Position numbers and translations under genes: made by a program
DNA from: a virus
Virus record (IMG/VR): IMGVR_UViG_3300032291_001920
Location: 1 to 32,681 of that record
DNA: 32,681 bases
Strand: one strand, 5' to 3'
Shown here: positions 2,018 through 27,224 of the stretch, piece by piece
Position numbering within the stretch: the stretch's first letter is position 1
Layout of the letters: every line of letters starts with the position of its first letter
Notes under the pieces: generated by a model
Databases searched by the model: none
Seen by the model: only the letters and a program-made list of their open reading frames with translations
Told to the model about the DNA's origin: nothing

Positions 2018-2659
2018 ATGGCAACATACAGAAAACTACACACAACATTTTGGACTGACCCATTTGTTGAAGATTTAACACAGGAACAAAAATTGTTTTA
2101 TCTTTATTTGATTACTAATACTAAAACAAAACAATCTGGCATTTATGAAATTACTAAAAAGTATATGGAGTTTGAAACAGGTTTTAGAATTGAAAAAATT
2201 AGTGAATTAATTACTGACTTTGTAAATAAAGGTAAGATATTATATTCTGAAAAAACTAATGAGATTGCAATTGTAAATTGGGTTAAACATAACTTATCAA
2301 TATCACATAGTGTATTAAAGTGTATTGAAACTGATTTATATGAAGTAAAAGATAAGGATTTAGTTAGAGCTCTATATAAAGATGATTATATTCAGTTATT
2401 AAAATCAGTTCCTCAAGCAACTAAAGGAACAAATGGAAAGATGGTAGGTGGTGCATACACTCCATTAATAGAGTATTTAGAGAGTATTCACACTATGGAT
2501 ACAGAGTGTGTACAGAGTGTGTACACCACAAAACAACAAGAACAAGAACAAGCAGAACCACAAGCATATGCACAAGCATATGCACAAGTAAAAACAGAAG
2601 AAGAAGAACAAACAGAATTTGATAAAGTGTTTGCTGATTTTGGTTACAGTAGTAAATAA
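2018..2659 (+). CDS. replication initiator, winged-helix N-terminal domain
   Basis: 213 aa. Likely binds the phage origin and recruits the host replisome. Residues 1-115 (FWTDPFVEDLTQEQKLFYLY, SGIYEI, then a region with spaced helices) match the N-terminal domain of phage replisome organiser/initiator proteins with a winged-helix fold. Residues 165-200 are a low-complexity linker rich in Gln, Glu and Ala (QAYAQAYAQ), and the C-terminus is a short acidic/aromatic tail (FDKVFADFGY) that may contact a helicase or loader. No helicase or polymerase domain is fused and none is encoded elsewhere in the genome. First gene after the host-type promoter at 1857. The linker-coding DNA holds tandem repeats (2500-2524 and 2561-2584) that could be the origin. 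Confidence 0.7.
   Translation: MATYRKLHTTFWTDPFVEDLTQEQKLFYLYLITNTKTKQSGIYEITKKYMEFETGFRIEKISELITDFVNKGKILYSEKTNEIAIVNWVKHNLSISHSVLKCIETDLYEVKDKDLVRALYKDDYIQLLKSVPQATKGTNGKMVGGAYTPLIEYLESIHTMDTECVQSVYTTKQQEQEQAEPQAYAQAYAQVKTEEEEQTEFDKVFADFGYSSK
2500..2524. repeat. two 11-bp tandem repeats inside the replication gene
   Basis: TACAGAGTGTG occurs twice in tandem (2500-2510, 2511-2521) followed by TAC. The palindrome GTGTACAC lies at 2519-2526. An 11-bp period is out of frame with the codons, so the repeat is not driven by the protein. Candidate iterons. Confidence 0.5.
2561..2584. repeat. two 12-bp tandem repeats inside the replication gene
   Basis: CAAGCATATGCA occurs twice in tandem (2561-2572, 2573-2584) and is followed by a partial third copy, CAAGTA. 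Each unit holds the palindrome GCATATGC. It also encodes an amino-acid repeat (QAYA), so it may be protein-driven, but with the 11-bp repeats 40 nt upstream it suggests an origin inside the gene. Confidence 0.45.
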
Positions 2660-2680
2660 CCTCTCCTCAAAGAGAGGTTA
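2657..2680 (+). terminator. perfect hairpin after the replication gene
   Basis: TAACCTCTC (2657-2665, starting at the stop codon) pairs with GAGAGGTTA (2672-2680) over 9 bp with a 6-nt loop. It is followed only by TTATAAG, so it may be a weak terminator or an mRNA-stabilising 3' end that lowers expression of the next gene. Confidence 0.5.
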
Positions 2681-2707
2681 TTATAAGTTAAATTAAATAA
2701 TATAGTT

Positions 2708-3103
2708 ATGATACATTCAGAATACACAAGAAGAAAACATTTAAGTAAAGACGTAAATGAGTTAGTTACGTCTATGATTGCAGTTAGTGATATATCAGAA
2801 GATGAATTAAAGTTCATCAATGATAATTTAAGTTATTTCAAAAGAAACCTACAAGATATGGGATTTCATCAGTTTAACTCATCACATGATTTGTATGAGA
2901 TAAGTCAGTTTGCATACAACTTTTATGATTTAGTTGAGAAGTATGAAATCAGTAAAAAGATTTCTTTACCATTAGATAAATTTGAAGAGATGCTTAGAAC
3001 TCTACACAGAATAATAAAGAAAAGTTTGCAATTACAATTCATTTTAGACAATATGGAAAAGAGTAGAGTTCAGAAAGAAGCATTTACAAATATGAAATAT
3101 TAA
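2708..3103 (+). CDS. hypothetical helical early protein
   Basis: 131 aa, not recognised. The sequence reads as mostly alpha-helical, rich in Lys, Glu, Leu and aromatic residues, with no signal peptide, no membrane segment and no metal motif. Conspicuous stretches are NDNLSYFKRNLQDMGFHQF (residues about 38-56) and a long amphipathic helix near residues 88-120. It starts 48 nt after the replication gene, past the hairpin at 2657, and is followed by another small gene after a 1-nt gap. Its place beside the initiator suggests an early takeover or replication accessory role, but this is inference. Confidence 0.6.
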   Translation: MIHSEYTRRKHLSKDVNELVTSMIAVSDISEDELKFINDNLSYFKRNLQDMGFHQFNSSHDLYEISQFAYNFYDLVEKYEISKKISLPLDKFEEMLRTLHRIIKKSLQLQFILDNMEKSRVQKEAFTNMKY

Positions 3104-3104
3104 A

Positions 3105-3353
3105 ATGAGGAAAAGAATAATAAAAGATAAATCATTATCTGAATATACTACAAAAGGAAAGAAAGCATCTATACAATCAATAAAAGATGCTAGAAGAGAA
3201 GCATTAGAACTCGCATATCAGAAAGGATTTATTACAAAAGAAGATATAGATAAAGGTATGGCAATATCAACAAGGTTTCAGAAAAAGAAAAGAACTCCTG
3301 GTAAAAAAAAGAAAGTAATAATATACTACGGATATAATACAATAAGTAAATAA
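3105..3353 (+). CDS. small highly basic early protein
   Basis: 82 aa, not recognised. Very rich in Lys and Arg, with a basic N-terminus (MRKRIIKDK), a central helix (KDARREALELAYQKGFITKE) and a basic C-terminal patch (QKKKRTPGKKKK). Such charge suggests nucleic-acid binding, but no known fold is evident. It follows the previous stop after 1 nt. Its stop codon at 3351-3353 abuts the first copy of the 54-bp promoter repeat. Confidence 0.55.
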   Translation: MRKRIIKDKSLSEYTTKGKKASIQSIKDARREALELAYQKGFITKEDIDKGMAISTRFQKKKRTPGKKKKVIIYYGYNTISK

Positions 3354-3406
3354 ATAAAAAATATTTTAGAAAACATTAGGATATATCACGATAATTTCGT
3401 ATATTT
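3353..3406 (+). repeat. 54-bp direct repeat, copy A
   Basis: Identical over all 54 bases to 4111-4164. The copies are 758 bp apart and each starts at the stop codon of the gene before it. Each carries the upstream part of a promoter. Together they bracket the GNAT gene. Confidence 0.9.
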
Positions 3407-3407
3407 A
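3376..3407 (+). promoter_or_regulatory. Bacteroidota-type promoter A, before the GNAT gene
   Basis: TTAG at 3376-3379, 20-nt spacer, TATATTTA at 3400-3407. This is one mismatch from TTTG and one from TAnnTTTG (last base A instead of G), so weaker than the otherwise identical copy B. Confidence 0.55.
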
Positions 3408-3455
3408 CTTTGTAGTTCGGTGTGAGCTACTTTAAAACTTTAAACTTTAAAACAA

Positions 3456-4115
3456 ATGATAAATCTAAAATCAAAAAATCAATACGCTAATTTAGTTGGT
3501 TATATATTACCACACTTATTAGGTTCAACAAAAATTTATAGTGAAGTTAAACGTAATCATTGGGATAACGTATTTTTAACTAATAAAGCAATTTCAAAAG
3601 TATATCTTGGTTTATTCAATGATTCTAAATCAGTAACAATTCCTTCAATGAAAGTTACAAATGAATTTAATAAATTTAAAAAAGAGTTTTTTAATAGATT
3701 TACTCCAAATACAAAAACTGAAATGGGTGGCAGTTTTGATGAGATTGTTGATTATGGTTATGAAATAGATACACCAGGAGCACCTGCGATTAGATTGAAC
3801 GCAACAGAAGAATTAGTAGATTGTAATTTTGGAGATTATGAGTTAGCATTTGTACCATATAATGATGGGGTTATGTTAATCCATATTGATGTTAAAGAAT
3901 CAGAAAGAAATAAAGGCATTGGTACGTTTGTTATGAATGCATTATATGATATTAGTGAAGATATTAATGTTCCCATTTATTTAATACCATATCCCGCAGG
4001 ACATTTTAGTTCTAAAACAGAAAAAGATTTAGTAACAATATTAAAAAATTGGTATGATAAATTAGGTTTTGGTCCTGTATCAGAAGGTTCAAAAATATGG
4101 TGTAACTTTGAATAA
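3456..4115 (+). CDS. GNAT-family N-acetyltransferase
   Basis: 219 aa. Probable acetyl-CoA-dependent acetyltransferase. The C-terminal half (about 125-219) shows the GNAT pattern: beta strand ending VMLIHIDV, then motif A with R151-N-K-G154-I-G156 for the acetyl-CoA pyrophosphate, a helix (TFVMNALYDISED), and the closing LKNWYDKLGFGPVSEGS typical of the last GNAT strand-helix. Residues 1-90 form a basic extension that I do not recognise and that could select the substrate. The gene has its own promoter and leader and sits between two identical 54-bp repeats, like an inserted cassette. It could modify a host protein during takeover or act as a defence or counter-defence factor; the target is unknown. 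Confidence 0.7.
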   Translation: MINLKSKNQYANLVGYILPHLLGSTKIYSEVKRNHWDNVFLTNKAISKVYLGLFNDSKSVTIPSMKVTNEFNKFKKEFFNRFTPNTKTEMGGSFDEIVDYGYEIDTPGAPAIRLNATEELVDCNFGDYELAFVPYNDGVMLIHIDVKESERNKGIGTFVMNALYDISEDINVPIYLIPYPAGHFSSKTEKDLVTILKNWYDKLGFGPVSEGSKIWCNFE

Positions 4116-4164
4116 AAAATATTTTAGAAAACATTAGGATATATCACGATAATTTCGTATATTT
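4111..4164 (+). repeat. 54-bp direct repeat, copy B
   Basis: Exact copy of 3353-3406. It overlaps the end of the GNAT gene (stop 4113-4115) and contains the upstream part of promoter B. After the repeat the two leaders diverge but both keep a 'ttcggt' stretch, so the duplicated unit may once have been longer. Confidence 0.9.
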
Positions 4165-4165
4165 G
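4134..4165 (+). promoter_or_regulatory. Bacteroidota-type promoter B
   Basis: TTAG at 4134-4137, 20-nt spacer, TATATTTG at 4158-4165. The downstream box matches TAnnTTTG fully. Drives the 74-aa gene at 4229 after a leader of about 60 nt. Confidence 0.65.
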
Positions 4166-4228
4166 TATTGTTGATTCGGTTATCAACATAAACATTCAAT
4201 AAAAGTTAAACCTTAAACACACACAGTT

Positions 4229-4453
4229 ATGAACAATTTACAATTAGATGCACAGTTAGTAGAATGGTTGAAGCAATCAAGAGATGTAACTCAAAATGAG
4301 TTTTTACATTTACAAAGCACAAGACGTGCATTAGAAAGCACTTTTGAATTTGAAGGTGATGTTAAAAAGCATTTAGAAGATAAGGAGGCAGTAGTTCTAC
4401 ATAGATTCCATTGGTTACAGAAACAAATGGATAACATCGGTTCAACATTTTAG
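4229..4453 (+). CDS. hypothetical small helical early protein
   Basis: 74 aa, not recognised. Almost wholly predicted alpha-helical with heptad-like hydrophobics (QLVEWLKQSRDV, then ALESTFEFEGDVKKHLEDKE and VVLHRFHWLQKQMDNI), so it could form a helical hairpin or dimer. No membrane segment or cysteine motif. It has its own promoter in repeat copy B and is the last gene before the early terminator at 4484. A small, separately promoted early gene fits a host-interaction factor, but this is inference. Confidence 0.6.
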   Translation: MNNLQLDAQLVEWLKQSRDVTQNEFLHLQSTRRALESTFEFEGDVKKHLEDKEAVVLHRFHWLQKQMDNIGSTF

Positions 4454-4483
4454 AAAATTAATTGATTACTCATAAGTTTGTAT

Positions 4484-4515
4484 AAATCCTGCTTCCTTTG
4501 GAGGCAGGGTTTTTT
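4484..4515 (+). terminator. strong intrinsic terminator closing the early operon
   Basis: TCCTGCTTCC pairs with GGAGGCAGGG (10 bp, two G-U pairs) around a TTT loop. Flanking AAA/TTT pairs extend the stem, and a T6 tract follows. Confidence 0.85.
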
Positions 4516-4536
4516 GTATCTAAAAAATAAATGAAT

Positions 4537-4605: not shown

Positions 4606-4995
4606 ATGGCAACTCAATCACAACAACAAAACTTACATCCACTATATAGAAACTATTATGCAACTGCTGATGGTGAAATCTATTCAATTAAGAAATATGG
4701 TGATGACCTTCGTATAAAACAAGCAAATCACCAAAGAGGATACTACCAATTCGGACCTATGATATCAGGTAAGAAACGTATGTATCTATCACATAGATTT
4801 ATTTACGAATGTATGACAGGTAAATTGATACCTAAAGGTCTACAAATAAATCATATAGATAATTGCAAAACAAACAATCACATTGATAATTTAGAATTAG
4901 TAACACAAATACAAAATATGGCAGCAGGTATAGCATCAGGTGTTCTATACGGTTCAGCTAATCCAAATCACCCATTTTATTATAAACAAAGATAG
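4606..4995 (+). CDS. HNH homing endonuclease
   Basis: 129 aa. Selfish DNA nuclease of the NUMOD4/HNH_3 type. Residues 18-30 (YATADGEIYSIKK) are a NUMOD4-like segment. The nuclease core is INHIDNCKTNNHIDNLELV (residues 81-99) with H83, H92 and N95 as the expected HNH residues. Start chosen at ATG 4606 after an AT-rich leader. It is the first gene of the operon that follows the early terminator and may have inserted into the gap between modules. The free-standing form with a short C-terminus (ASGVLYGSANPNHPFYY) is common for phage HNH genes; that tail can read as a further DNA-contact motif. Confidence 0.85.
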   Translation: MATQSQQQNLHPLYRNYYATADGEIYSIKKYGDDLRIKQANHQRGYYQFGPMISGKKRMYLSHRFIYECMTGKLIPKGLQINHIDNCKTNNHIDNLELVTQIQNMAAGIASGVLYGSANPNHPFYYKQR

Positions 4996-4997
4996 TT

Positions 4998-5138
4998 ATG
5001 AAACAAGAAAAGAAGTACGCAATGATTCAGGTAACATCTGACATTCATGAATTAGTAAAAGATTATTGTAATGAAAATGGTTTTAAAATCGGTTCATTGG
5101 TTAGTATCTTAATCAGAAAACACATAAAGAAGAAATGA
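4998..5138 (+). CDS. small ribbon-helix-helix-like protein
   Basis: 46 aa. Reads MKQEKKYAMIQVTSDIHELV, then a helix (KDYCNENGF) and a second helix (GSLVSILIRKHIKKK). A short beta strand with alternating residues (MIQVTSD) followed by two helices with a turn at Asn-Gly is the Arc/MetJ ribbon-helix-helix pattern, which binds DNA as a dimer through the strand. It begins just after the HNH stop and its stop overlaps the next start as ATGA. It could be a transcriptional regulator, for instance of the control region at 1741-2017, but no target is proven. Confidence 0.65.
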   Translation: MKQEKKYAMIQVTSDIHELVKDYCNENGFKIGSLVSILIRKHIKKK

Positions 5139-5329
5139 AAAGAATTAAATTAGGAGATTACTTAGAAGTATTAATAGAAATTTTCACATTAGGATATGGA
5201 GAACATATTGCATTATGGATAGCAAGATTATTCGGAAAGAATAGTTGTGGTTGTTGTGAAAGAAAGCAATGGTTAAATCGTTTAACAAATCCACAATACG
5301 ATGGTGAATGTAACCAAATAAAATTATAA
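5135..5329 (+). CDS. small protein with CGCCERKxWLN motif
   Basis: 64 aa. A hydrophobic/amphipathic first half (residues 10-34, with LEVLIEIFTLGYG and IALWIARLFGKN) is followed by C38, C40 and C41 in CGCCERKQWLNRL. The 'CGxCxxRKxWLN' motif recurs in small phage proteins of unknown function; it may bind zinc. The first half is not hydrophobic enough to be called a membrane segment with confidence. Start overlaps the previous stop (ATGA). Role unknown. Confidence 0.6.
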   Translation: MKRIKLGDYLEVLIEIFTLGYGEHIALWIARLFGKNSCGCCERKQWLNRLTNPQYDGECNQIKL

Positions 5330-5344
5330 TTAAACAAACACAAA

Positions 5345-5623
5345 ATGAACACACAATTTAAAGTAGAAAAAGGAACAATAGATGGTTCAACACCACAGAT
5401 AAATCCAAACGCATTGTACTTAGTAGATTTCAGTAAAATAGAATCAGTAAATGATTTAATTTTAATCCTCGCATCAATCGGATTTCAATTCTCACCACAC
5501 CACCCACACTTCAACCAGGTTCAACGATTTTTAGCATTAGAGAATCCTATTATACCTTTGGGACAGAACGTTCAACCAGTGGAAAAAGAAATGGTACTAC
5601 CGAAGTTAAAAAAAGTAAAGTAA
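5345..5623 (+). CDS. hypothetical protein
   Basis: 92 aa, no known function. The middle (residues 25-70) holds LVDFSKIESVNDLILILASI and a His-rich turn (FSPHHPHFNQVQRFL), which looks like a compact alpha/beta domain. The C-terminus is basic (LPKLKKVK). No cysteine or membrane features. It starts 15 nt after the previous gene behind an A-rich leader and ends in a TAATG overlap with the next gene, so it belongs to the same operon. Confidence 0.6.
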   Translation: MNTQFKVEKGTIDGSTPQINPNALYLVDFSKIESVNDLILILASIGFQFSPHHPHFNQVQRFLALENPIIPLGQNVQPVEKEMVLPKLKKVK

Positions 5624-5895
5624 TGGAAACCCACACAACAACAATGCCAGATTTTATAACTAACTATCTTCCATATACAGAAGATGAATATAGAGAGTTA
5701 AAATCTATTATGAAAGATATAACCACTCACATACCAAACGATAGAATGGGTTGGTTATGGAGTAATCATAATAAGATATTAAACACAAACGAACCTCAAC
5801 CTTGTAGTTGTGGTAGTGCAGCAGCAAATTGGAAAAGAGCAGCTGAAACAGTTCGTAATTTTATTTCACAAACCGAAACTAAGATAAATGGATAA
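5623..5895 (+). CDS. hypothetical protein with CSCGSAAANWKRA motif
   Basis: 90 aa. The C-terminal half contains GWLWSNHNKILNTNEPQPCS followed by CGSAAANWKRAAETVRNFI. A 'P.PC.CG......W....' pattern of this kind occurs in small proteins of Bacteroidota phages and mobile elements, where two cysteines and aromatic residues seem conserved. I cannot assign a function. Start in a TAATG overlap; end overlaps the sigma-like gene by 8 nt, suggesting translational coupling with it. Confidence 0.55.
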   Translation: METHTTTMPDFITNYLPYTEDEYRELKSIMKDITTHIPNDRMGWLWSNHNKILNTNEPQPCSCGSAAANWKRAAETVRNFISQTETKING

Positions 5896-23873: not shown

Positions 23874-25406
23874 ATGGCATCACAAATAATACCAATCAAA
23901 GTACCCACTTATATAGCAGCAGCAGACTATTCTCCTGCTAGGGTATTACCACGTTTATTTTATTATAACGGTTTGATTGATTGTGAAACTTATTATATTG
24001 AAAGTGGTTCACTAACAAAAGCAGGTGTAGCTAAAGCACAAACATCATTTCCATACTTTGATAATTACAATGTAGTAACAGGTAGTTTTCCAACAGTAAA
24101 TTCTAAATCACTTCTTTTTAATAATGAAGGAGCAGCATATGGTGAAGTTCCAACAGATTCTTTATATACTGATTATTGGCAAACATATATAGATTTATTA
24201 TACAATCCAGTTACAAGATTATTTAATTGTGAAGCAATCATACCTTTGGCTGATTATTTCAAAATGGAATTGAATGATATTGTAGAGTGGAGAGGTAACT
24301 ACTATCATCTTCGTGCAATTAATGATTATAACTTAACAAATGGTGAATGTAATTTACAATTGTTAGGTCCAATATTAGCAGATGCATTACAATTAACAAA
24401 TGCTGATTGTAATTTTGATTTTAGTTTTGCAGAAAATTTAACACCTACTACTACTTTAGTACCAACAACTTTAGTACCAACTACTTTAGTACCAACAACT
24501 ACTTTAGTACCAACTACGTTAGTACCTACTACTTTAGTACCAACTACTACTTTAGTACCAACTACTTTAGTACCAACTACAACATTGACTCCAACGGAAG
24601 CACCTACGACTAGTACTACATCACCTCCGCCAACTATAACACCTACAACTTTAGTACCAACTACGTTAGTACCAACTACTACTTTAACACCGACTACATT
24701 AGTTCCAACTACGTTAGAACCAACTACTACTTTAGTACCTACTACTTTAGTACCAACAACTTTAGTACCTACTACTACATTGACTCCAACGGAAGCACCT
24801 ACTACAACATTGACTCCAACGGAAGCACCTACGACTAGTACTACAACTGGTACTCCTACTGTAGCTCCAACTGCTACTCCAACTGCTACTCCAACTGTTA
24901 CTCCTACTGATACACCAACAACCCTAACACCAACTACTTTAGTTCCTACAACAACTGCTACACCTGTAACATTTTATGAAGCAACTAGAACAGGTGGTAC
25001 AACTCGTACTGTATCTTTTACTGATTATAATGGTAATTCTCGTTCTTGGACTTTTAGTGGAATTGATAGTGTAAAATTTGCGGCACTTAAAGGTACTGTA
25101 TCATTTGATAATCCTTTAGGATGTACTCTTACAACTATAACAGAACCATTTACACCTAATTTTAGAAGTTATGGTGTTAACTTTGGTCCGAGTCAACTCC
25201 CTACTTACTATATAACTTATCAGGATGTTGGTGGAAGTATTGTACAATATACTAATTATACTTATCTATCATCAGCGTGTATAGTTAGTGGGAGTGCAGT
25301 AACAACTGGCGCAACTTGGACACTTACTGATACAGGCGATTGTACACCAGCTACAACGACTACTACTTTAGCACCTACGACTAGCACTACAACATTAGCA
25401 CCATAA
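23874..25406 (+). CDS. mucin-like Thr/Pro-rich tail adhesin 1
   Basis: 510 aa. Residues 1-187 are a folded N-terminal domain (IIPIKVPTYIAAADYSPARV, then DIVEWRGNYYHLRAINDYN) that should dock on the tail. Residues about 190-365 are a low-complexity stalk of LVPTT, LTPTEAPTT and TPTATPT units. Residues 366-492 are a separate beta-rich domain (VTFYEATRTGGTTRTVSFTD, TTYYITYQDVGG-like strands) that probably binds a receptor. The protein ends in a second short repeat (TTTTTLAPTTSTTTLAP) with nothing folded after it. Such Thr/Pro stalks are prime substrates for O-glycosylation, and glycosyltransferase genes lie downstream. Confidence 0.65.
   Translation: MASQIIPIKVPTYIAAADYSPARVLPRLFYYNGLIDCETYYIESGSLTKAGVAKAQTSFPYFDNYNVVTGSFPTVNSKSLLFNNEGAAYGEVPTDSLYTDYWQTYIDLLYNPVTRLFNCEAIIPLADYFKMELNDIVEWRGNYYHLRAINDYNLTNGECNLQLLGPILADALQLTNADCNFDFSFAENLTPTTTLVPTTLVPTTLVPTTTLVPTTLVPTTLVPTTTLVPTTLVPTTTLTPTEAPTTSTTSPPPTITPTTLVPTTLVPTTTLTPTTLVPTTLEPTTTLVPTTLVPTTLVPTTTLTPTEAPTTTLTPTEAPTTSTTTGTPTVAPTATPTATPTVTPTDTPTTLTPTTLVPTTTATPVTFYEATRTGGTTRTVSFTDYNGNSRSWTFSGIDSVKFAALKGTVSFDNPLGCTLTTITEPFTPNFRSYGVNFGPSQLPTYYITYQDVGGSIVQYTNYTYLSSACIVSGSAVTTGATWTLTDTGDCTPATTTTTLAPTTSTTTLAP
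24441..24968. repeat. Thr/Pro-coding repeat tract in adhesin 1
   Basis: About 520 bp of degenerate units, mainly ACTTTAGTACCAACTAC variants (15-18 bp periods), later ACTCCAACTGCT types. The amino acids are kept while synonymous bases vary. Antisense open frames over this tract are an effect of the repeat. Confidence 0.8.
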
Positions 25407-25451
25407 TGATGAAAAATAAATTAAACATTGTTAAAAACAATATAGGATAGT

Positions 25452-27224
25452 ATGGCAAATATAAATTATACAATTACATTAACTGTAGAAGGTGGACTAG
25501 CTGGTCCATCATATGCTGTCTACTATTCAAACGATTGTGTAATTTATACTGCATCAGTTTCATCTCCTATTAATTTACCTAATATTGGTTCTACTGCAGT
25601 TGTTACAATACCTGATACTTCTACTTGTATTAAATTAGTTAACTTATCAGCTGGTTGTTCTTTAAATGAAGTTATTAAAACAATTTCAACTACAACTACT
25701 TTAACACCAACTACTTTAGTTCCTACTACTTTAGTTCCTACTACTTTAGTTCCTACTACATTAGTTCCAACTACTTTAGTTCCAACTACAACTTTAGTAC
25801 CTACTACTTTAGTTCCTACTACTTTAGTTCCTACTACTTTAGTTCCTACTACTTTAGTACCAACTACAACTATTACACCAACTGATGTTCCAACAACCAG
25901 CACCACTACTGCTACCCCTACGGTAACACCTACATCAACAACGACTACATTAGCTCCTGGTTATTACAGAGCATTAAGTTGTGATGATGGTGTAACGCAT
26001 ATTTTCTCTACCCTATCAGTTAATCCTCTATTTAATAGTGGAGATAGAATACTTGCTAATAGTTTCCAAAATTATGTAGTAGATGGTTTCCAAACTAATA
26101 ATCCGGGTGGAACACTTTATACATTTACTGCTACTGCTGAATTTGGTTGCCCTGCTACAACGATAACTCCAACAGATACCCCAACTACTTTAGTTCCAAC
26201 TACGACATCTACAACTACTGCTACACCTACGGTTACTCCAACGACTACATTAGCACCTGGTTATTACAGAGCATTAAGTTGTGCTGATGGTGTAACTAAT
26301 ATATTCTCTACATTAAGTGTAAATCCATTGTATAATAGTGGTGATAGAATACTTGCTAATGGTGATTTACCTTATGTGGTTAATGGTTTCCAAACTAATA
26401 ATCCTGGTGGAACTCTTTATACATTTACTGCTACTGCAGAGTTTGGTTGTCCTGCTACAACAGTAACACCTACTGATACACCGACTACATTAGCTCCAAT
26501 GACTACGAGTACTACAACGGCAACACCGACAGTAACTCCAACAGTAACACCTACTGCTACTCCTACTGTAACACCTACTGTTACACCGACTGATACTCCA
26601 ACAACGAGTACCACTACGGCTACACCGACAGTAACACCAACTACGTTGACACCAACTGCAACACCAACAACTACTACGTTGACACCAACAGTAACTCCAA
26701 CAGTAACACCTACAGTAACACCTACAGTAACTCCAACTGATACTCCAACAACGAGTACCACTACGGCAACACCTACGGTTACACCTACGGCAACACCTAC
26801 TGTGACACCTACTGTGACACCAACGGCAACGCCTACTGTAACTCCAACTGTTACTCCAACGGATACACCAACAACGAGTACTACAACGGCAACTCCTACG
26901 GTTACACCGACGGCAACTCCTACGGCAACTCCAACAGTAACTCCTACGGCAACTCCTACGGAAACTCCAACAACTACGGTTGAGCCGTTCTATTACAACA
27001 ATGCATACCGTAATACTTGTAATGGTGGAAGTCCTTGTACTGATGATGGAGTAGAAGTTGTATTACGTTCTACTACACCTTTAAGTAATGGTTCGTGGTA
27101 TAGTGATGGAAGTAAATCATATCAACCTTACGGTTCAACATCAGGCCCATCTTATGGTGTAGATATTGACCCTTACATATACACACAAGCATCGAGTTGT
27201 GAAGATGCTTGTGACAATTATTAA
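25452..27224 (+). CDS. mucin-like Thr/Pro-rich tail adhesin 2 with duplicated domain
   Basis: 590 aa. Residues 1-79 form a small beta domain (NINYTITLTVEGGLAGPSYA ... CIKLVNLSAGCSLNEVI). Then LVPTT repeats (about 80-168), a globular unit starting PGYYRALSC (about 169-236), a short stalk, a second copy of the unit (about 269-336), and a long stalk of VTPTATPT/DTPTTSTTT units (about 337-512). The C-terminal 78 residues (PFYYNNAYRNTCNGGSPCTD ... SCEDACDNY) form a cysteine-bearing tip. Beads-on-a-string design suggests a long flexible receptor-binding or glycan-coated appendage. Follows adhesin 1 by 45 nt. Confidence 0.65.
   Translation: MANINYTITLTVEGGLAGPSYAVYYSNDCVIYTASVSSPINLPNIGSTAVVTIPDTSTCIKLVNLSAGCSLNEVIKTISTTTTLTPTTLVPTTLVPTTLVPTTLVPTTLVPTTTLVPTTLVPTTLVPTTLVPTTLVPTTTITPTDVPTTSTTTATPTVTPTSTTTTLAPGYYRALSCDDGVTHIFSTLSVNPLFNSGDRILANSFQNYVVDGFQTNNPGGTLYTFTATAEFGCPATTITPTDTPTTLVPTTTSTTTATPTVTPTTTLAPGYYRALSCADGVTNIFSTLSVNPLYNSGDRILANGDLPYVVNGFQTNNPGGTLYTFTATAEFGCPATTVTPTDTPTTLAPMTTSTTTATPTVTPTVTPTATPTVTPTVTPTDTPTTSTTTATPTVTPTTLTPTATPTTTTLTPTVTPTVTPTVTPTVTPTDTPTTSTTTATPTVTPTATPTVTPTVTPTATPTVTPTVTPTDTPTTSTTTATPTVTPTATPTATPTVTPTATPTETPTTTVEPFYYNNAYRNTCNGGSPCTDDGVEVVLRSTTPLSNGSWYSDGSKSYQPYGSTSGPSYGVDIDPYIYTQASSCEDACDNY
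25687..26987. repeat. Thr/Pro repeats and 300-bp domain duplication in adhesin 2
   Basis: Thr/Pro tracts lie at about 25687-25955, 26161-26255 and 26461-26985. The two PGYYRALSC units are at 25956-26160 and 26256-26460, offset by exactly 300 bp. They keep nearly all amino acids but differ at many synonymous sites. Confidence 0.8.

Follow-up and report, generated by a model that had tools for sequence, protein, structure and literature searches.

In this study, we show that two related phages carry completely different genes between near-identical flanks, in both cases arranged as repeated promoter-leader-gene units, and we suggest that such stretches are probably arrays of one-gene cassettes in which the shared promoters act as recombination joints for gene exchange. 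The DNA analysed here, hereafter the window, is the whole of the virus record IMGVR_UViG_3300032291_001920 (32.7 kb, with a 123-bp terminal repeat), and has the gene set of a tailed phage, with terminase, head and tape-measure proteins. Cultured phages, namely Bacteroides, Phocaeicola and Flavobacterium phages, match the window terminase at only about 37–39%, and the window promoters are of the Bacteroidota kind, in which TTTG or TTAG is followed after about 20 bp by TAnnTTTG (published −7 consensus TAHHTTTG; PMC6847099); both observations point to a Bacteroidota host. About 235 loci were gathered as relatives, using as queries the terminase and replication initiator, a profile of the early regulator, GNAT family members and the promoter pattern. 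The early-regulator profile found no relative among species genomes, and of the 88 stretches that matched a relaxed promoter pattern, most lay in coding sequence or in unrelated phages and were not considered further.

The comparison that carries our proposal is with L204, an uncultured phage represented in three metagenomes (as L204, L168 and L198, 99.97–99.99% identical over their overlaps), which belongs to the same group as the window yet has a terminase that is only 44% identical. The two phages share a left flank (window 2653–3119, 95% DNA identity over 467 bp) that contains an ORF of 131 aa (2708–3103, plus strand as are all array features described below; 95% DNA identity to L204 4214–4679 and 96% at the protein level), which matches no family and was not found in cultured phages. 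On the other side, a terminator segment (4456–4530, with a hairpin at 4488–4508 followed by a T-run) closes the array and is 97% identical over 75 bp to L204 6239–6313; an Rfam match to EF3314_EF3315 over this segment was far below the cut-off and was rejected. Between these flanks not one gene is held in common. The window has an ORF of 82 aa (3105–3353), which lacks its own promoter and is absent from L204, followed by two promoter-leader-gene units, the first with a divergent GNAT acetyltransferase-like gene (3456–4115, 219 aa) and the second with an orphan ORF of 74 aa (4229–4453), for which neither the viral contigs nor the fetched loci contained a relative. L204 has four units at this place, with genes of 85, 73, 119 and 84 aa, and no GNAT gene. 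In both phages, identity extends to the stop codon of the left-flank gene and resumes just past that of the last cassette gene. Matches to HamA (E 0.008) and LMxysn_1693 (E 0.012) were judged to be due to chance.

Within the replaced stretch, the window promoter with its leader (3351–3450) matches L204 5415–5514, the module ahead of the 119-aa gene, with 91% identity over 102 bp, while the genes on both sides of this module are unrelated in the two phages. Amid unrelated genes, the promoter-leader modules thus stand out as islands of homology. The promoter element is present in two copies in the window, five in L204 and two in L186, and it abuts or overlaps the preceding stop codon in the window and at three of four L204 positions, the fourth following a terminator; the second, internal promoter of L186 is likewise located at a stop codon. 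A first-pass annotation of the window had predicted that the gene lying between the promoter repeats would not be the same in relatives, and L204, with its near-identical flanks and four other units, bears this out; the opposite outcome, in which all relatives keep the GNAT gene and both repeats at ordinary divergence, was looked for and is contradicted by the same phage. The idea of a swappable GNAT cassette put forward there is correct in that genes do turn over between shared flanks, but the exchange is wider than one GNAT cassette and concerns an array whose gene number varies. Only one relative (L204, equivalent to L168 and L198) proved to have a matching array. Individual L204 genes recur in other settings, the 47-aa gene in L186 and the 103-aa gene in L111.

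The two window promoters form an exact repeat. As had been described, the copies are 54 bp long and 758 bp apart (3353–3406 and 4111–4164), and both contain the core TTAG-N20-TATATTT downstream of an AT-rich part. No exact repeat in the first 10 kb is longer, and since 200 first-order Markov shuffles of this region never gave one above 17 bp, chance can be ruled out as the source of the identity. The claim that each copy starts at a stop codon holds for the presence of a stop codon at both copies; the registers, however, differ. Copy 1 starts with the last A of the stop codon of ORF 3105–3353, and copy 2 starts with the AA of the final Glu codon of the GNAT gene, so that the repeat itself supplies the GNAT stop codon (4113–4115). 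Both copies are of the Bacteroidota promoter type and are predicted to be active. They differ in the base that closes the −7 box: in copy 2 the repeat is followed by G, giving TATATTTG, which fits the published consensus, whereas copy 1 reads TATATTTA. The same base separates two promoter classes among the phages compared, one with TATATTTA (copy 1 at 3400–3407, L076 and all L204 copies except a TATCTTTA variant) and the other with TATATTTG or TATGTTTG (copy 2 at 4158–4165, L186, L081 and L084). As Flavobacterium promoters almost always have the consensus G (PMC6847099), promoters of the A class (TATATTTA) may be regulated or weaker.

It could be argued that the two copies are identical simply because they are the same regulated promoter, with all 54 bp held by selection for polymerase or regulator binding, and that they have no part in gene exchange. 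Other phages of the group do have the element ahead of accessory operons, and conservation of its upstream part is high (96% over 28 bp in L081). However, in an alignment fixed at the −7 box, the two window copies are 100% identical, but the five L204 copies, which have the same role, are only 61–87% identical among themselves, that is, they differ at 13–39% of positions, and values across phages range from 56 to 94% (85% over 54 bp for copy 1 and the L204 copy ahead of the 119-aa gene). The spacer, moreover, varies freely between phages. Promoter constraint alone is therefore rejected as the reason for the exact identity, and ordinary co-regulation, which also leaves the turnover of all genes between near-identical flanks unexplained, seems to us an improbable account of the array. 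The divergence of the other copies and the free spacer point instead to a recent duplication or conversion as the probable origin of the exact pair, in support of the earlier proposal of recent duplication or recombination-driven insertion. No further copy of the exact 54-mer was found in viral contigs, and a search for the promoter-leaders in cultured phages gave no convincing copy (best E about 0.03). The identity of the two copies stops at the base that divides the two promoter classes, where the leader type also switches, which suggests a recombination border at the promoter end; a breakpoint inside a promoter was not directly visible in the sequences compared. As the record is a metagenome assembly, we also considered that the second copy or the gene order was made by the assembler. 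This is very hard to believe, as 54 bp is shorter than the read length, the sequence differs right after each copy and assemblies from three metagenomes agree at 99.97–99.99% on an array of this design.

Beyond the repeat the two window leaders diverge, as had been stated, type A (3407–3455) reading ACTTTGTAGTTCGGTGTGAGCTAC and type B (4165–4228) reading GTATTGTTGATTCGGTTATCAACA. They nevertheless share a design: a 7-bp hairpin begins four to five bases past the repeat (3412–3418/3424–3430 in type A, fold −8.1 kcal/mol; 4169–4175/4182–4188 in type B, fold −6.6 kcal/mol) and is followed by an unstructured A/T-rich run to the ATG. All seven leaders, two in the window and five in L204, open with a perfectly paired stem of 7 bp or more, with three unrelated stem types among them; when each leader was shuffled, such a stem opened the sequence in 4–12% of cases. 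The seven promoter-leaders can all be aligned and contain an invariant AATTTCGTAT stretch, and leader B, which precedes the 74-aa ORF, shares its type with the leader of the 73-aa gene in L204. Shine–Dalgarno sequences are absent from Flavobacterium mRNAs, whose starts tend to be unstructured and to have A at −3 (PMC6847099), and the window leader design fits these preferences. The leader hairpins may serve to protect the mRNA.

Based on these observations, we propose that a cassette would consist of a promoter, often placed over the preceding stop codon, a leader that has a short hairpin at its start, and a single accessory gene, with the terminator closing the array. Since the promoters are alike both within and between phages of the group, they could serve as short homologies, and homologous recombination there during co-infection would add, remove or exchange cassettes, an incoming gene being expressed at once from the shared promoter. 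The exact 54-bp pair would then be the trace of one recent event, either insertion of the GNAT gene at a promoter or duplication or conversion of the promoter. We regard homologous recombination at the promoters as the most likely mechanism behind the gene turnover. A length of 54 bp is nevertheless short for RecA-type recombination, which counts against the promoters as joints, and because no recombinase genes were recognised among the early genes scanned, a host enzyme or an unrecognised one must be assumed. An integron cassette array was considered and rejected, as the repeats are promoters rather than attC-like sites and a scan of the early proteins and of selected late ones found no integrase.

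A different route to the same outcome would be that the whole stretch was replaced through the neighbouring HNH endonuclease or by illegitimate recombination, the promoter repeats being a by-product of having one promoter per gene. Genes for HNH or GIY-YIG-like proteins lie beside the array in both the window and L204; the HNH endonuclease gene of the window (4606–4995; PF13392, 4.2e-13) adjoins the array, and its product is a possible driver of recombination. In addition, the GNAT genes of L095, L147 and L149 have travelled on a longer block with other borders, which is a point against exchange at promoter joints. Replacement of the whole stretch is still unlikely in our view, as the shared identity is bounded by the stop codons of the left-flank gene and the last cassette gene, and the promoter-leader modules remain homologous inside the replaced stretch.

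Across the group, genes follow a common frame, in window coordinates late genes up to 1330–1647, a variable stretch, small genes at 4998–5895, a sigma-like gene at 5888 and then the terminase, and the repeat/GNAT array falls in the variable stretch. In many relatives this stretch holds a minus-strand accessory operon, and in several of them (L073/75/76, L080/81/83 and L084) the promoter element is present once, ahead of that operon. Adjoining the variable region, a 46-aa Arc-like (ribbon-helix-helix) protein (4998–5138) is kept in most relatives and is a candidate regulator of the array promoters. The position of the cassettes beside the replication gene suggests that they are expressed early. 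Upstream of this replication initiator gene (2018–2659), we observed a structured leader RNA (1911–2005) in which two hairpins have complementary 7-nt loops (a kissing loop), the conserved linker AAGATAACGGAAGAAATTCCAAA carries a small hairpin, and a C-rich/G-rich stem precedes a T-run. It is also present in L076, L081, L099, L131, L137, L151 and L186; over eight distinct phages, 99.1% of pair cells are kept and 18 of 28 pairs change on both sides, a level reached by none of 500 shuffles. There was no match in Rfam, and the kissing-loop RNA ahead of the replication gene is undescribed. Elsewhere in the window (24435–26920), the neighbouring ORFs 23874–25406 and 25452–27224 contain long Thr/Pro-rich repeat tracts with units of 12 and 15–18 nt, including a 300-bp duplicated domain (82%).

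The product of the GNAT gene is, judged by its sequence, a divergent GNAT acetyltransferase-like protein. It scores 15–16 bits with Pfam GNAT models, below the cut-offs of 20.7 and 27, and all five homologues match these models below E 0.1 (E 0.004–0.03), again under the curated cut-offs. The CoA-binding motif R/QxxGxG/A is present as RNKGIG, and residues 121–205 of the structure model match GNAT structures; because the model is weak (mean pLDDT 48), structural claims are confined to these residues. A search with the GNAT sequence alone returned nothing from the viral, species-genome and cultured-phage collections, and among the fetched loci homologues were found only in L111/L112, L095, L147, L149 and, weakly, L150. 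The window protein ends, at the repeat, 9 to 25 residues short of them. In L095 (3054–4026), L147 (5711–6683) and L149 (5911–6693), the gene lies in a block of 0.8–1.0 kb with 92–97% DNA identity while the other early DNA is largely unmatched, which indicates recent transfer and shows that the GNAT gene moves by other routes too. In L111, it stands at the end of a minus-strand operon, and a comparison of L111 1260–4153 with L147 4111–6683 and with L149 places the promoter-side region, the GNAT gene and the terminator on the opposite strand, so that the block appears inverted. The best solved match to the GNAT family is AcrVA5, an anti-CRISPR GNAT acetyltransferase that acts on Cas12a (PDB 6iuf; PMC9114340), with a profile E of 2.6e-4 and Foldseek rank 1 (E 2.4e-3, from the weak model), and the match includes the PYPxDD stretch after the CoA motif. 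However, the single window sequence reaches only E 0.1 against AcrVA5, which is less than half as long as the window protein, and given the weak model we treat this relation as a lead only. That small Bacteroidota phages carry an island for anti-defence or host takeover, made of interchangeable promoter-hairpin-gene cassettes that swap at their promoters with no dedicated recombinase, and that the GNAT protein is an AcrVA5-like inhibitor of a host defence supplied in this form, is a speculative extension that we consider doubtful.

The closest known systems are mobile regulatory cassettes known from T4-like phages as PeSLs (promoter early stem-loops; Arbiol 2010, doi 10.1093/gbe/evq006; Comeau 2014, doi 10.1093/gbe/evu129; as cited in PMC4503421). 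PeSLs resemble the arrays of the window and L204 in that promoter and stem-loop units are repeated between variable genes, and they are held to mediate shuffling between related phages. In the arrays studied here the element is likewise repeated between variable genes, a stem-loop accompanies all seven promoters and the genes are exchanged between the window and L204. By title, however, a PeSL is a promoter-terminator composite, whereas the hairpin described here lies past the −7 box at the start of the leader and has no T-run in the window; only the L204 promoter copy at 5418 follows a terminator. PeSLs also belong to another phage group and use another promoter type. The window array thus works like PeSLs, yet we do not file it as one, because its stem-loop is a leader hairpin and not a terminator. 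Two archaeal viruses offer further parallels. In HGTV-1, a TATA-box-like motif and an inverted repeat precede most ORFs of one genome arm, with a role in regulation and shuffling put forward as a suggestion only (PMC3950731); both virus and promoter are archaeal, unlike those of the window. The class I intergenic repeats of halovirus HF2, at 58 bp close in size to the 54 bp found here, carry promoters whose activity was demonstrated by reporter assay (PMC8707807), though gene exchange was not the subject of that work.

Morons are accessory phage genes with their own promoter and terminator. The units described here resemble them as single accessory genes with their own promoter among phage genes, but differ in being arranged in tandem, mostly without terminators of their own, and in using one promoter family.

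With flanks that are 95–97% identical and every gene between them different, the window and L204 provide an unusually clean natural case for gene shuffling via shared promoters, and extend to Bacteroidota phages an idea that had been proposed for T4-like and haloarchaeal viruses. In addition, the conserved promoter-leader offers a DNA tag by which uncultured phages can be searched for new accessory genes, possibly with anti-defence roles.
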